A stretch of 64,000 nt of DNA from Vulcanimicrobium alpinum (GTDB taxonomy: Bacteria; Vulcanimicrobiota; Vulcanimicrobiia; Vulcanimicrobiales; Vulcanimicrobiaceae): NCBI RefSeq assembly GCF_027923555.1, contig NZ_AP025523.1:3042484-3106483 (forward strand). Reading direction: 5' to 3'. The notes under the pieces were generated by a model, which was given only the letters and a program-made list of their open reading frames with translations, did no database searches and was not told the origin of the DNA. This document shows positions 39,350-45,453 of this stretch, one piece after another. Numbering within the stretch: the stretch's first letter is position 1; each line of letters opens with the position of its first letter. The position numbers and the translations under genes were made by a program.

Positions 39350-40051
39350 ATGACGACGTGGAGGGGGGCCGCGTTCCTTGCGGGCACGGCGGCGTTCGCA
39401 CTCGCCGGCTGCGGCGGGTCGCATCGCGACGAGCACGAGGAGACGGCCGGCCCGGCGCATCGGACGACGGTCAACCCGAGCACGTTTCCGCTCTATCGCG
39501 GCAGCGAAGTCTACGACGTCGTGCGCGTCGATCTGCGGCCCATGGCTGCGACGATCAAGAAGAACGACCCGTCATCGGAGACCGGCGAATCGTACGACGG
39601 ACACGAAGTCGTCGCCGTGAGCGCCGCCCCGCTGAGCCGGCTGAACGCCTGGGTCCGCGAGCTCGCCTCCGCGCCGCCGCAGCGCCTGCACGTCTCCCGC
39701 CGCGCGGACGCCTCCGCCGAGGGCAGCCGCGACGTCCTGCGCTCGACCGGCGCGACGGTCACGACGTTCCGATCCGCGAACGAGTCGCGCGTCGTCATGC
39801 TGATCGTCCTCGACCCGAAGACCGTGCGCGCGAAGATCGGACCAGCGCTCGACGCGATCGAGACGTACCGGAGCGTCCCCGGGGTGATGCGCGGCGCGAT
39901 CGACGAGGCGACGAAGAAACAGCTCGGCTACAGCGTCTCCGAGATGCTCGATCCCGGGAGCCCCGTCGGCGTCCTGGTGAACTCGGTGAAGGCGCTGCAG
40001 TCGCAGGACAAGCGTGCGATCGTGGTGATCGACGAGACGAAGGCCCGCTGA
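39350..40051 (+). CDS. Hypothetical lipoprotein
   Basis: 233 residues. Signal sequence with lipobox AFALAGC, so probably lipid-anchored outside the membrane. The mature part is mixed alpha/beta with no family I recognise; an LDPKTVRAKIGPALDAIETY stretch is the most ordered-looking segment. It starts 57 bp from the divergent MOSC gene and ends just before the aro promoter. Confidence 0.65.
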   Translation: MTTWRGAAFLAGTAAFALAGCGGSHRDEHEETAGPAHRTTVNPSTFPLYRGSEVYDVVRVDLRPMAATIKKNDPSSETGESYDGHEVVAVSAAPLSRLNAWVRELASAPPQRLHVSRRADASAEGSRDVLRSTGATVTTFRSANESRVVMLIVLDPKTVRAKIGPALDAIETYRSVPGVMRGAIDEATKKQLGYSVSEMLDPGSPVGVLVNSVKALQSQDKRAIVVIDETKAR

Positions 40052-40063
40052 CCGCACCTGGGG

Positions 40064-40093
40064 TTGACAGGGGCGCGAAGCGTTTGCTTGAAT
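40064..40093 (+). promoter_or_regulatory. Promoter of the aro operon leader
   Basis: Consensus TTGACA (40064-40069), 18-bp spacer, TTGAAT (40088-40093). The predicted start of transcription is at about 40100-40102, on or next to the ATG of the leader peptide, so the leader mRNA would be leaderless. Confidence 0.7.
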
Positions 40094-40101
40094 CAGCCCA
40101 C

Positions 40102-40179
40102 ATGCTCTCCGGCGCGTACTTTTATCGCTGGTATCCTCGCTGCACGCAAGTCGTGTCGGTCGAGTTCGGCATCGCGTAG
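40102..40179 (+). CDS. Aromatic-amino-acid leader peptide
   Basis: 25-residue ORF upstream of aroA whose residues 6-11 are Tyr-Phe-Tyr-Arg-Trp-Tyr, a run of five aromatic codons in six positions (MLSGAYFYRWYPR). No ribosome site precedes it, which fits translation from the very 5' end. It ends with TAG at 40177, 22 nt before the terminator hairpin. The codon content, the position behind a strong promoter and the downstream hairpin match the attenuator leaders of trp/phe operons. Function is inferred from the layout. Confidence 0.75.
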   Translation: MLSGAYFYRWYPRCTQVVSVEFGIA

Positions 40180-40201
40180 GGAGCACGAAGATGATGCACC
40201 G

Positions 40202-40239
40202 CGAGCCCCTCGCCGAACCGGCGGGGGGCTCGTTCGTTT
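40202..40239 (+). terminator. Attenuator terminator before aroA
   Basis: 14-bp stem pairing 40202-40215 with 40219-40232 (one G-T pair), a 3-nt loop, then TTCGTTT. GTTCGGC at 40164-40170, inside the leader peptide gene, is complementary to GCCGAAC at 40212-40218 in the stem, so an antiterminator can form when ribosomes stall at the aromatic codons and leave that segment free. Confidence 0.7.
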
Positions 40240-40253
40240 CGGACACGAGAACC

Positions 40254-41507
40254 ATGATGAAGACCGCGCCCCACCTCCGCGTCCCCGGCGACAAATCGAT
40301 CGCGCATCGCGCCGTCATGTTCGCCGCGCTCGCGCGCGGAACGTCGCGGCTGCGGAACGTGCCGGACGGGCTCGACGTGCTCTCGACACAGCGCGCGATG
40401 CGCGCGCTCGGCGCGACACTGCACGCAGACGGCGACACGCTCGTCGTCGAGGGCTGCGGCGGCGCGTTCCGCGCGCCGGACGAACCGATCGACTGCGGCA
40501 ACAGCGGGACGACGATGCGGCTCGTCGCGGGAATCCTGGCAACGCGCGCGATCGACGTGACGCTCACCGGCGACGACTCGCTGCGCGCGCGGCCGATGCG
40601 GCGCGTCGCCGCACCGCTGGCGGCGTTCGGCGCGACGATCGACCTCAGCAACGGCTGGACCGCGCCGATGCGCGTGCGCGGGAACGGCGACGCGCGCGGT
40701 GCGGAGATCGCGGTGACCGTCGCGAGCGCGCAAGTGAAATCGGCGCTGCTGCTCGCCGCGCTCGGCGCGCACGGTCCGACGCGGCTCACCGGCGAACTCG
40801 CGACGCGCGACCACACCGAACGTCTGCTCGCAGCGTTCAGCGTGCACGTGCGCGCGGACGGCGGCGCATTGGTCCTCGACGGTCCGGCGATGCTTCACGC
40901 CGCCGAGATCGACGTCCCCGGCGACATCTCGAGCGCGGCCTTTCTGTTCGCGGCGGCCGCGGCGACGGCGGGCGGCACTGTCACCGTCGACGACGTCGGG
41001 CTCAACCCGACGCGCACCGCGTTCCTCGACGTGCTGCGGCGTTTCGGCGCCGAGGTCGAGGTGCGCATCGCCGCCGATGCGCCGGAGCCACGCGGCTCCG
41101 TCACCGTGCGCGGCCGCGCCCTGCACGCGATCGAGATCCTGCCGTCCGAAGTGCCGGGGCTCATCGATGAACTGCCGCTGGTCGGCGTGCTCGGCGCGTT
41201 TGCGAACGGGACGACGACGGTGCGCGGCGCCGCCGAACTGCGCGTCAAGGAATCGGATCGAATCGAATCGTTCGCCGCGGCGGCGCGCGCGCTCGGAGCC
41301 GACGTCGAGACGGCGCCCGACGGATTCGCCGTGCACGGGCCGGCGCGCTGGCACGACGGCGCGGTGGCGACCCATCACGATCACCGCATCGCGATGGCGT
41401 TCGCCGTCGCCGGACGCGTCGCTCGGGTGCGCGTGACGCTCGACGATCCCGACTGCGCCGCGGTCTCGTTCCCCAACTTCGCCGCCGCGCTCGAGTCGCT
41501 CGCGTGA
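40254..41507 (+). CDS. aroA: 3-Phosphoshikimate 1-carboxyvinyltransferase (EPSP synthase)
   Basis: About 417 residues. Joins phosphoenolpyruvate to shikimate 3-phosphate. Seen: RVPGDKSIAHRAVMFAALA, CGNSGTTMRL, LTGDDSLRARPMRR, and AELRVKESDRIE, all active-site segments. ATG 40254 (or 40257) lies after the attenuator hairpin. An in-frame ATG at 40191 has a better ribosome site (AGGGAG) but would translate through the hairpin, so both starts remain possible. First structural gene of the shikimate operon; its stop overlaps aroE (GTGA). Confidence 0.95.
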   Translation: MMKTAPHLRVPGDKSIAHRAVMFAALARGTSRLRNVPDGLDVLSTQRAMRALGATLHADGDTLVVEGCGGAFRAPDEPIDCGNSGTTMRLVAGILATRAIDVTLTGDDSLRARPMRRVAAPLAAFGATIDLSNGWTAPMRVRGNGDARGAEIAVTVASAQVKSALLLAALGAHGPTRLTGELATRDHTERLLAAFSVHVRADGGALVLDGPAMLHAAEIDVPGDISSAAFLFAAAAATAGGTVTVDDVGLNPTRTAFLDVLRRFGAEVEVRIAADAPEPRGSVTVRGRALHAIEILPSEVPGLIDELPLVGVLGAFANGTTTVRGAAELRVKESDRIESFAAAARALGADVETAPDGFAVHGPARWHDGAVATHHDHRIAMAFAVAGRVARVRVTLDDPDCAAVSFPNFAAALESLA

Positions 41508-42277
41508 AGCACGCCGCCGTGATCGGTCACCCGATCGCGCACAGCCGTTCGCCGCAGCTCTTCGCGCGGTTCGCGGCGGCGAGCGGGATCGCGCTGCGCT
41601 ATGACGCCGTCGACGTCCCGCCCGAACGTCTCGAAGCGACGCTGCGCGCGTGGCGCGCCAATCCGGAGTTCGTCGGCTGCAACGTCACCCTTCCGCACAA
41701 AAAACGCGCGCTCGCGCTCGCCGACCGCGCCGACGAGAGCGCGCGCGCCTGCGGCGCCGCCAACGTGCTGACTCGCGTCGACGGCGCGCTGATCGCCGCG
41801 AATACCGACGTCGAGGGCGTCGAGGCTGCGCTGGCGCAGGCCGGCGTCGCGCTGCGCGGCGCGCGCGTCGCGATCATCGGCACCGGGGGCGCCGCACGCG
41901 CGGTCGCCGAGGCCGCGCGCCGCAGCGGGGCCGCGCAGATCGCCGTCGCCGGGCGCGGCGCGGAGCGCGCCGCCGCGCTCGCCGCGGCGTTCGGCGGCCG
42001 CGCGTGCACGCTCGCCGCCGTCCCGCTGAGCGACATCTACGTCAACGCGACGCCGGTCGGGATGGACGGAGGGCCGCAGCACTCGCTGCTGCCGGCCGAC
42101 GCGCCCGGGAACGCGACGGCCTTCGATCTGATCTATACGCCCGAACGCACCCCGTTTCTGAACGACGCGTCGGCACGCGGGATGCGCACCGTGACGGGAA
42201 CGGCGATGTTCCTGGCCCAGGGCGCCGCCACGTTCGCCCGCTGGTTCGGGTTTGCGCCGAAGGAGTTGCCCGTATGA
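41504..42277 (+). CDS. aroE: Shikimate dehydrogenase
   Basis: 257 residues. NADPH-dependent reduction of 3-dehydroshikimate. Motifs: VIGHPIAHSRSPQLF (substrate), NVTLPHKKRAL with the catalytic Lys, ANTDVEGVEAAL with the catalytic Asp, and GTGGAARAVAEAA (cofactor loop). GTG start overlaps the aroA stop, and the stop overlaps the aroC start (ATGA). Confidence 0.96.
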   Translation: MKHAAVIGHPIAHSRSPQLFARFAAASGIALRYDAVDVPPERLEATLRAWRANPEFVGCNVTLPHKKRALALADRADESARACGAANVLTRVDGALIAANTDVEGVEAALAQAGVALRGARVAIIGTGGAARAVAEAARRSGAAQIAVAGRGAERAAALAAAFGGRACTLAAVPLSDIYVNATPVGMDGGPQHSLLPADAPGNATAFDLIYTPERTPFLNDASARGMRTVTGTAMFLAQGAATFARWFGFAPKELPV

Positions 42278-43437
42278 GTCTGCGTCACTTGACCGCCGGC
42301 GAGTCGCACGGCGCCGCGCTGGTCGGAATCCTCGAGGGGATGCCGAGCGGCTTGCCGCTCGACATCGCAACGCTGCACGCGCAAGCGAAGCGGCGTAAAC
42401 TCGGCTTCGGCCGCGGCAACCGGCAGACGATCGAAACCGACGAGGTGCGCATCCTCTCCGGCGTGCGGCGCGGCGTGACGATCGGGAGTCCGATCGCGCT
42501 GATGATCGAGAACCGCGACCACGTGCGCTGGGCGGAGATCATGCGCGTCGACGCGCCCGACGACGATGCACCGGCGGCGCGCGCGGTGCACGTTCCGCGG
42601 CCCGGCCACGCCGACCGCGTCGGCGGGATCAAATACGACCGCAACGACCTGCGCGACATCCTCGAACGCGCGAGCGCGCGCGAGACGGCGATGCGCGTCG
42701 CGCTGGGGACGATCGCACGCGCGTTTCTCGCCGAGGTCGGCGTGATGCTGACGAGCCGCGTCGTGCGGATCGGGCGCGCGGTCGACGAGTCGCCGTGGCA
42801 CGACGTCCCGGTCGCCGAGATCGATGCGTCGCCGGTGCGCGCGCTCGATCCGGTCGCCGCCGCGGCGATGGTGCAGGAGATCGAACTCGCCCGGGCTGCG
42901 GGCGACGCGCTCGGCGGCGTCTTCGAAGTCGTCGCGTTCGGCGCGCCGGTCGGCCTCGGATCGTACGCGCAGTGGGACCGCCGGCTCGAAGCCGAAGTCG
43001 GGCGCGCGTTTCTCTCGCTCAACGCGATCAAAGGCGTCGAGATCGGCCTCGGGTTCGGCGCCGCGGCGCGGCCCGGTTCCGAGGCGCACGATGCCTACGA
43101 ACCCGATCCGCAGACGCGCACGCGCTACCGCACCAACCGCGCCGGCGGGATCGAAGGCGGGATGACGACGGGTCAGCCGATCGTGGTGCGCGTCGGGATG
43201 AAGCCGATCGCGACGCTGATGAAACCGCTCGACTCGGTCGACCTACGCACCGGCGAGGCGGTGAAAGCGCACATCGAACGCGCCGACACCTGCGCCGTGC
43301 CGGCGGCCGCGGTGATCGGCGAATCGCTGCTCGCGCTCGTCCTTGCCGACGCGGTGCTCGCGAAGTTCGGCGGCGACTCGCTGGGCGAAGTGCAACAGCG
43401 CGTACGCGCCTGGGAAGCGACCGCGCGTGCCCGCTAA
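42274..43437 (+). CDS. aroC: Chorismate synthase
   Basis: 387 residues. FMN-dependent last step of the shikimate pathway. Typical segments: LTAGESHGAALVGILEGMPS, RPGHADRVGGIKYD, LERASARETAMRVALG, and RAGGIEGGMTTGQPI near the C-terminus. A good GAAGGAG precedes ATG 42274, which overlaps the aroE stop. Its end overlaps aroKB by 11 bp. Confidence 0.96.
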   Translation: MSLRHLTAGESHGAALVGILEGMPSGLPLDIATLHAQAKRRKLGFGRGNRQTIETDEVRILSGVRRGVTIGSPIALMIENRDHVRWAEIMRVDAPDDDAPAARAVHVPRPGHADRVGGIKYDRNDLRDILERASARETAMRVALGTIARAFLAEVGVMLTSRVVRIGRAVDESPWHDVPVAEIDASPVRALDPVAAAAMVQEIELARAAGDALGGVFEVVAFGAPVGLGSYAQWDRRLEAEVGRAFLSLNAIKGVEIGLGFGAAARPGSEAHDAYEPDPQTRTRYRTNRAGGIEGGMTTGQPIVVRVGMKPIATLMKPLDSVDLRTGEAVKAHIERADTCAVPAAAVIGESLLALVLADAVLAKFGGDSLGEVQQRVRAWEATARAR

Positions 43438-45004
43438 CATCTACCTCTGCGGGCCGCCGGGCTCGGGGAAATCCGTAGTCGCGCCGCTCGTCGCGCAGCT
43501 GCGCGGGCTCGACGCCGTCGACATCGACACGCTGGTCGAAGCAAACGCCGGACGGCGGATCGCGCAGATCGTCGACGAGGACGGGGTCGCCGCATTCCGC
43601 ACGCTCGAACGCGAGACGATCGCACGGGTCGCAGCGCGCGGCGACGTTGTGGTCTCGCTCGGCGGCGGCGCGCTCGAAGACGGCGCCAACCGCTGCGCGA
43701 TCGCCGAGAGCGGGATCCTGGTCTTCCTCGACGCCTCGGTGGAGACGTGCGAGAAGAACGTCGCGCGGCATCCCGGGACGCGGCCGCTGCTGCGCGAGCC
43801 CGGCGCGCTCGCGCGCCTGCATCGCGAACGCCGCCCGCGCTACCTCGACGCCGCGATTCGCGTCGTCGTCGACGGCGCGACGCCGCGCGCGCTCGCGCAG
43901 TCGATCGACGCGGCGCTGCGCGACGAACGCGTCGTGCGGGTCGCGACGGCGAAGCCGTACGACGTCGCGATCGGTCCCGGCGTCCTCGAATCGATCGCGA
44001 CGCGCGTCGCACCGCAGGCCGGCGGCCGCGCGGTGATCGTCGTCGACCGCCACGTCGAGGCGCTCGGCCTGCGCGTTGCACGCGCCTATCACGACGCCGG
44101 ACTGCACGCGACGCTGATCGACGTCGACGCCGACGAATCGCTCAAATCGCTCGGCTCGATCGGTACGCTCTACGGCCGCTTCGTCGAGGCGCAACTCGAC
44201 CGGCGCGGGATCGTGGTGGGGATCGGCGGCGGCACGATCGGCGATGCGGTCGGCTTCGCCGCCGCGACGTACCAGCGCGGCGTCCCGTTCGTCTCGATCC
44301 CGACGACCCTGCTCTCGGCGGTCGACGCGGCGATCGGCGGCAAGACCGCGATCAACCTCGACGCCGGCAAGAACCTTGTCGGAACGGTGACGCAGCCCGC
44401 GCTCGTCGCGATCGCGCCGCACACGCTGCGTTCGCTCCCGCAGCGCGACGTCGTCTCCGGCTACGGCGAGATGCTCAAGTACGGCCTGGCGCTCGACGCC
44501 GCGCTCTACCGGGCGCTGCGCGAGAGCGAAGCCGCCCTGCTCGCCGATCCGGCGACCGCGATCGACGCGATCGCGCGCTGCGTCGCGATTAAAGCCGAGA
44601 TCGTCGCACGCGACGAAGACGATCGCGCCGGGATCCGCGCGATGCTCAACTTCGGCCATACCGTCGGGCACGCCGTCGAGAAGGTCGCCGGGTTCGGAAC
44701 GCTGCGGCACGGCGAAGCGGTGATCGTCGGGATGCGCGCCGCGCTCGCGCTTTCGGTAGCACGCGGCGCACTCGACGACGCCGCCCGCGACGACGTCGAC
44801 CGTCACCTCGCGAGCCTACCGGTCCCCGACGCGTGGCGCGGCCTCGACGCCGACGCGGTCGTGGCCGCGACCCGCGGCGACAAGAAGCGTCACGCCTGCG
44901 GCACGCAGTTCGTCCTGCTCGAAGCGCTCGGCCGCGCGCGGCTCGATGACGGCGTGCAGCCCGGCGACGTGCGCGCGGCGCTCCACCGGATCGGCCTCGG
45001 ATGA
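43427..45004 (+). CDS. aroKB: Bifunctional shikimate kinase / 3-dehydroquinate synthase
   Basis: 525 residues, a fusion. Residues 1-~165 are shikimate kinase: P-loop CGPPGSGKSVVAPL, VDIDTLVEANAGRRI with the shikimate-binding Asp, and VVSLGGGALED. Residues ~170-525 are dehydroquinate synthase: GGGTIGDAVGFAAATYQRG, PTTLLSAVDAAIGGKTAIN, SGYGEMLKYGL, and NFGHTVGHAVE with zinc-ligand His residues. Fusions of these two are known in scattered bacteria. GTG 43427 starts inside the end of aroC; the stop overlaps aroQ (ATGA). Confidence 0.96.
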   Translation: MPANIYLCGPPGSGKSVVAPLVAQLRGLDAVDIDTLVEANAGRRIAQIVDEDGVAAFRTLERETIARVAARGDVVVSLGGGALEDGANRCAIAESGILVFLDASVETCEKNVARHPGTRPLLREPGALARLHRERRPRYLDAAIRVVVDGATPRALAQSIDAALRDERVVRVATAKPYDVAIGPGVLESIATRVAPQAGGRAVIVVDRHVEALGLRVARAYHDAGLHATLIDVDADESLKSLGSIGTLYGRFVEAQLDRRGIVVGIGGGTIGDAVGFAAATYQRGVPFVSIPTTLLSAVDAAIGGKTAINLDAGKNLVGTVTQPALVAIAPHTLRSLPQRDVVSGYGEMLKYGLALDAALYRALRESEAALLADPATAIDAIARCVAIKAEIVARDEDDRAGIRAMLNFGHTVGHAVEKVAGFGTLRHGEAVIVGMRAALALSVARGALDDAARDDVDRHLASLPVPDAWRGLDADAVVAATRGDKKRHACGTQFVLLEALGRARLDDGVQPGDVRAALHRIGLG

Positions 45005-45453
45005 ACGTCCTCGTCGTCAACGGGCCGAACCTGAACCTGCTCGGCGAACGCGAGCCGGCGATCTACGGCCGCACGACGCTCGCCGAACTGGAGCGCGCCG
45101 TCGCCGAGCACGCGCGCGAACTCGGTCAGACGGTGCACTTCTTCCAATCGAATCACGAAGGCGCGATCATCGACGAACTGCACGCCCAGCGCCGTTGGGC
45201 GAACGCGGTGATCATCAATCCCGCGGCGTTCACGCACTACTCGTACGCGATCCGCGACGCGCTGCTCGCGATCAACCTGCCGTGCGCCGAGGTCCACCTC
45301 TCCGACGTCGACAACCGCCCCGAACCGTTCCGCAAGATCTCGGTGGTCCGCGGCGTTTGCGTGCACTGCTTCATGGGGCTCGGCGTGGGATCGTATCTTG
45401 CCGCGCTCGACGCGTTCGCGCGCGACGCGCGCGCGGCGATCCCGCCGGCGTGA
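45001..45453 (+). CDS. aroQ: 3-Dehydroquinate dehydratase, type II
   Basis: 150 residues. Type II enzyme with NGPNLNLLGEREPAIYG (including the catalytic Tyr), FFQSNHEGAIIDEL, INPAAFTHYSYAIRDAL and EVHLSDVDNR. Coupled to aroKB upstream (ATGA) and to the aldo/keto reductase downstream (GTGA). With aroE, aroC, aroKB and aroA it gives every shikimate step after DAHP synthase. Confidence 0.96.
   Translation: MNVLVVNGPNLNLLGEREPAIYGRTTLAELERAVAEHARELGQTVHFFQSNHEGAIIDELHAQRRWANAVIINPAAFTHYSYAIRDALLAINLPCAEVHLSDVDNRPEPFRKISVVRGVCVHCFMGLGVGSYLAALDAFARDARAAIPPA

Follow-up and report, generated by a model that had tools for sequence, protein, structure and literature searches.

In Escherichia coli, the attenuators trpL, pheL and pheST each respond to a single amino acid and begin translation at a Shine-Dalgarno sequence; their targets are terminal branches or a synthetase (PMC11802643). 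A mixed-aromatic attenuator is described from Corynebacterium glutamicum, where the operon of the DAHP synthase gene aroF is preceded by the AroR leader (Phe-Tyr-Phe) and is reported to respond to Phe and not to Tyr (Neshat et al. 2014, as cited in PMC11802643; PMC4046766). Leader peptides encoded at the very start of leaderless transcripts are described as well, including trpL of S. meliloti (PMC7298713), leuL, trpL, metL and thrL of Streptomyces lividans, with several per genome (PMC8079986), and the mycobacterial poly-Cys leaders (Canestrari et al. 2020, as cited in PMC9031893).

The window analysed here is a 64-kb stretch of the single-contig genome (3,508,363 bp) of Vulcanimicrobium alpinum, a member of Vulcanimicrobiota/Eremiobacterota. 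It contains an aro operon preceded by an element that, judged from its sequence and that of its relatives, is very probably a ribosome-mediated transcription attenuator with a leader peptide predicted to be leaderless. The initial annotation of the locus held that joint control by all three aromatic amino acids would be distinct from known attenuators, which overstated the case, since mixed-aromatic attenuation was already known from AroR/aroF of C. glutamicum.

Organization of the aro leader locus

The promoter, the 25-codon ORF with its YFYRWY run, the strong hairpin and then aroA all lie at the positions first assigned to them (Table 1). The leader ATG is located eight bases past the -10 element, at the predicted transcription start, and lacks a Shine-Dalgarno sequence. 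Downstream, the gene ends overlap from aroA through aroE, aroC and the aroK-aroB fusion to aroQ, which therefore presumably constitute a single operon.

Table 1. Features of the aro leader and operon, in positions of the window
Feature	Position	Strand	Details
Promoter	40064-40093	+	-35 TTGACA 40064-40069, 18-nt spacer, -10-like TTGAAT 40088-40093
Leader ORF	40102-40179	+	25 codons plus stop, peptide MLSGAYFYRWYPRCTQVVSVEFGIA; start ATG 40102-40104, stop codon 40177-40179
Regulatory codons 6-11, Tyr-Phe-Tyr-Arg-Trp-Tyr	40117-40134	+	aromatic enrichment in aroA leaders
Antiterminator 5' strand	40156-40176	+	within the final eight ORF codons; 17 modelled pairs
Antiterminator 3' strand	40200-40216	+	terminator 5' arm and start of the terminator loop
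Intrinsic-terminator hairpin (predicted)	40202-40232	+	13 pairs including one G-U, loop GAACC
T-rich tract	40233-40240	+	TTCGTTTC, directly 3' of the hairpin
aroA (EPSP synthase), first operon gene	40254-41507	+	Pfam PF00275, E 2.9e-111
aroE (shikimate dehydrogenase)	41504-42277	+	PF08501; 4-nt overlap with aroA
aroC (chorismate synthase)	42274-43437	+	PF01264; 4-nt overlap with aroE
aroK-aroB fusion (shikimate kinase and 3-dehydroquinate synthase)	43427-45004	+	PF01202 and PF01761/PF24621, one 525-aa frame
aroQ (type II dehydroquinase)	45001-45453	+	PF01220

Both the -10 element and the T-tract are imperfect, the latter being interrupted, and generic scans of the window missed both of them. 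A detector requiring promoter, short ORF and hairpin returned the aro leader as its sole match in the 64 kb on both strands. Among ORFs of 12-40 codons, at least five aromatics in six residues occurred in one of 202 in the window and in none of the 4,972 short ORFs from 20 Markov-shuffled windows. A search with the Rfam covariance models (trp leader, T-box, riboswitches and others) gave no match above the gathering score to either the window or the element. The pattern of -35, -10 and adjacent ATG is found 19 times in the whole genome versus once in the reversed control; this excess, together with the distance from -10 to ATG and the absent Shine-Dalgarno sequence, suggests a leaderless start.

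Conservation of the cassette and its alternative pairings

The genus sample comprised 11 genomes (V. alpinum and ten others), in nine of which AroA was found, and the leader cassette sits immediately before aroA in eight of these nine. Absence of the peptide and hairpin from close relatives, which was to count against the proposal, applies to one genome, G009 (L002), where no leader precedes aroA; its AroA is the nearest relative (78% identity). In G009, aroA directly follows another gene, and the leader was either lost or never present. Across the eight aroA cassettes, the -35 TTGACA is invariant, the spacer is 17-18 and the -10 consensus is TTTACT; the ATG lies eight bases past the -10, the ORF has 24-25 codons with its final codons kept, and the terminator is present. 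The aromatic runs vary (YFYRWY, FWYRHY, YSYRYY, FWYRRYY, FWYRSYY, YRYSY and YLLAWYF), and as Y, F and W replace one another, it is aromaticity rather than the exact sequence that is kept. Six of the eight leaders contain Phe, Tyr and Trp, one contains Tyr and Phe, and one Tyr alone. At residues 2-14, aromatics make up 38/104 positions in aroA leaders, compared with 27/351 in leaders of the other classes (p = 1.2e-11).

The terminator stem, which has 13 pairs in the core and 15 in the MFE fold, is paired in 100% of cells over the eight species, with compensatory changes at two pairs and one-sided variation at three more. Attenuation acting through aroA translation or Rho instead of intrinsic termination is improbable. 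The interrupted T-tract, the short distance of about 20 nt that separates the end of the hairpin from aroA, and the related mycobacterial leaders without clear terminators (PMC1262725) would accord with it; however, the 13 GC-rich pairs are followed by T-rich sequence 3' of the stem in all relatives, several of which have runs of 4-5 T, arguing for an intrinsic terminator.

Analysis of the last nine ORF codons revealed that all third positions are invariant among aroA leaders while positions 1 and 2 vary; for instance, I, A, V and N codons at one site, and V, F, P, S and L codons at another, all end in C. As the third positions are fixed even where the amino acid changes, selection acts on the RNA. 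The conserved antiterminator, GTCGG-(T)-CGAG...GGC.(A)TCGCG, pairs with the terminator 5' arm and loop start; 16 of the 17 modelled pairs form in the window, and 95.6% of cells are paired over the eight species versus 31-49% when the strands are slid. The pairing originally put forward, GTTCGGC (40164-40170) with GCCGAAC (40212-40218), joins two segments that both exist, but it is full-length only in V. alpinum, and the longer register is conserved instead. The covariation looked for in homologues is borne out by the compensatory changes in the terminator but not by the antiterminator of the eight aroA cassettes alone, where none is seen because the bases hardly vary.

Folding with a ribosome mask, assumed to cover 17 nt behind the A-site codon and 14 ahead, was applied at the last aromatic codon to RNA extending up to the terminator loop. 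Under these settings the window leader forms 15 antiterminator pairs, and most relatives fold similarly, some of them less cleanly. In full-length transcripts the terminator is more stable in every case, so that antitermination must be kinetic, as is generally assumed for trp-type attenuators.

Probable attenuator elements across the family

When 84,980 species genomes were scanned for the exact pattern, there were five matches only, all in Eremiobacterota, and hence no wider spread at that stringency; a lax 18-mer genome search was uninformative in GC-rich DNA. The covariance model R1, built from the eight aroA cassettes and run over 149 genomes of the phylum (E <= 1e-4), was confined to one family apart from one terminator-only match elsewhere. 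Within the genus and family, R1 also matched other loci, at which the same type of cassette precedes other operons. The aro device is accordingly not the singular case it first appeared to be but one of a family-wide set, in which 61 attenuator elements were catalogued with leaders that match the downstream pathway; counts from the detector are lower bounds, since it missed some leaders found by R1 (e.g. L206 and L211). Enrichment of the cognate residue at positions 2-14 has p values from 1e-7 to 4e-25 across the leader classes tested.

Except for the aro operon and prephenate dehydratase, genes were identified from conserved motifs recognised by eye. Ile/Val/Leu leaders precede ilvA, ilvB, ilvC and leuA (e.g. 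MFARLLVVVISVLLAVPPNRRAAFA), Met/Cys leaders precede metY and sulfite reductase, and Cys-rich leaders precede transporters. The hom leaders are Thr-rich in the V. alpinum genus and Met/Cys-rich in some other genera (L088, L093, L105 and L121), which suggests that the amino acid sensed at the same gene changed between genera. The V. alpinum genome has at least eight elements, before the aroA operon, the prephenate dehydratase-DAHP synthase (PDT-DAHPS) gene, ilvA, ilvC, hom, metY, sulfite reductase and an ABC transporter. At three loci of G000 (L122, L126 and L119), Met/Cys-rich leaders and terminators are followed by metY, sulfite reductase and a gene for a sulfonate-type ABC transporter, again named by eye; these loci probably form a sulfur-assimilation attenuator group. 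At L072 (G010:C196:23579-23647, minus strand), a Cys-containing leader, MLFCDMPCLCSSAPTRKRLLLA, is accompanied by a co-varied terminator (CTCTACCGA), and the downstream gene resembles an ABC-transporter substrate-binding protein. At L090 (G020:C12:181361-181523, minus strand), a very Tyr-rich leader, MLVRTYAYGYYYYGYSAESRSRTVLLA, and a terminator stand before a gene that by eye is PqqC/TenA-like, so that an unexpected gene may be under Tyr-sensing control.

Upstream regions of prephenate dehydratase were collected by gene, independently of any leader, and yielded 25 distinct aromatic leaders before the PDT-DAHPS fusion, with aromatics at 132/325 positions (p = 3.8e-25). Aromatic leaders, which were to be looked for before aro or DAHP synthase genes in related genomes, are thus present before aroA as well as before this fusion. 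In G015, G028 and G011, the PDT-DAHPS gene lies just upstream of aroA in an operon, so one leader may serve both; unlike these genomes, the V. alpinum genus has an aroA operon with a leader of its own. L127 (G000:C1:858900-860650, minus strand) is an example of the fusion, which is common in the family, and is preceded by an aromatic leader of its own, MAVTSWFYRYFYAECAALRRGRPLP. A leader before trpE was not detected in the V. alpinum genus.

The ORF 3' end and the terminator arm are co-adapted. Their duplex is more stable than shuffled controls over the 61 elements (mean z -2.1), and across 42 non-redundant elements the duplex with the own arm averages -21.9 kcal/mol, versus -18.8 +/- 0.44 kcal/mol for permuted arms. 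Permuted arms were as low as the own arm in 0/5000 trials, and also in 0/5000 within the 25 PDT-DAHPS elements alone, counts that are inflated by relatedness within classes and only partially controlled for base composition; the first 42 nt of the same ORFs, taken as a control, had no effect (3263/5000). Moreover, changed terminator loops (GCCGAACC, GCCGATCC, GCCGACACG and GCCACC) are matched by changes in the leader. A protector (1:2) hairpin between the codon run and the antiterminator strand is weakly supported: the own sequence beats foreign ones (0/3000), yet the mean shuffle z is only -0.66.

It is highly improbable that the ORF encodes a functional small protein or trans-acting peptide whose conservation reflects the protein. 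The C-terminus VSVE[FL]GxA is almost constant among aroA leaders, and the peTrpL peptide of S. meliloti (PMC7298713) is a precedent for a trans-acting leader peptide; however, invariant third positions with varying first and second ones are the opposite of protein selection, and the C-termini that occupy this site in other leader classes are quite different, with each one matched to the terminator it pairs with in its own element. We therefore judge this explanation unlikely, and the leader peptide may have a secondary role in trans. The view that the hairpin merely terminates the preceding same-strand gene, whose stop at 40051 lies only 50 bp from a then fortuitous leader ORF, is practically untenable and refuted on comparative grounds, given that promoter, ORF and hairpin are retained as a unit in eight species despite differing sequence further upstream in most, and that the aromatic run and co-adapted antiterminator are unexpected for a plain terminator.

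Proposed mechanism and comparison with known systems

We propose that the aro element acts as a ribosome-mediated attenuator in which transcription would start at the leader ATG or 1-2 bases before it, and ribosomes would load at the 5' end of the leader independently of a Shine-Dalgarno sequence. When charged aromatic tRNAs are short, with Phe, Tyr and Trp as the candidate signals, the ribosome would stall at codons 6-11 and leave 40156-40176 free to pair with the emerging terminator 5' arm and loop start (40200-40216). This antiterminator pairing would prevent the terminator from forming and allow aroA-aroE-aroC-aroKB-aroQ to be transcribed. When aromatics are plentiful, the ribosome at the stop codon would cover the antiterminator strand, the hairpin at 40202-40232 would form, and transcription would end. 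The core of the initial annotation, namely a leaderless aromatic-rich leader, an antiterminator segment within the ORF, a terminator and the aro operon, passes every comparative test.

The aro element would be one member of the standard leaderless attenuator set of the family. The chances are about even that the family regulates most of its amino-acid and sulfur operons through one standard leaderless cassette, in which the codon run can be exchanged and the terminator/antiterminator design is shared, and that the aro version acts as a single sensor pooling Phe, Tyr and Trp for the common shikimate pathway. Such a sensor sits on the common pathway, not on its branches, and offers a regulatory scheme that can be tested in a phylum whose molecular biology has hardly been studied; V. 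alpinum is available in culture (PMC9758169). With co-adapted antiterminators throughout the set, amino-acid operons of uncultured relatives become assignable from their leader peptides, and another phylum joins those whose attenuators appear, as a standard, to use leaderless leader peptides.

A literature search lying mostly outside subscription journals found nothing that links Eremiobacter- names with leader peptides, and no aroA-operon member occurs among the published S. meliloti, S. lividans and mycobacterial leaderless leaders compared. Both mixed-aromatic attenuation and leaderless leaders have precedents; new here, apparently, are the phylum and the target operon, and the family-wide set is apparently undescribed. 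The aro leader would resemble E. coli trpL, pheL and pheST in that the place of the ribosome on the regulatory codons sets the choice between antiterminator and terminator. It shares with the S. meliloti, S. lividans and mycobacterial leaders a run of amino-acid codons and an ATG at the transcript 5' end, which is predicted here; those leaders are unrelated in sequence, and some lack the intrinsic terminator that is uniform in the V. alpinum family set. AroR is similar to the aro leader in combining mixed aromatic codons with ribosome-mediated attenuation, proposed for the aro leader, of a common-pathway shikimate gene. They differ in that AroR belongs to Actinobacteria and precedes DAHP synthase, whereas the aro leader belongs to another phylum, precedes aroA-aroE-aroC-aroKB-aroQ, and contains all three aromatics including Trp in six of eight cases; in addition, the V. 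alpinum family has a second aromatic leader, before the PDT-DAHPS fusion.
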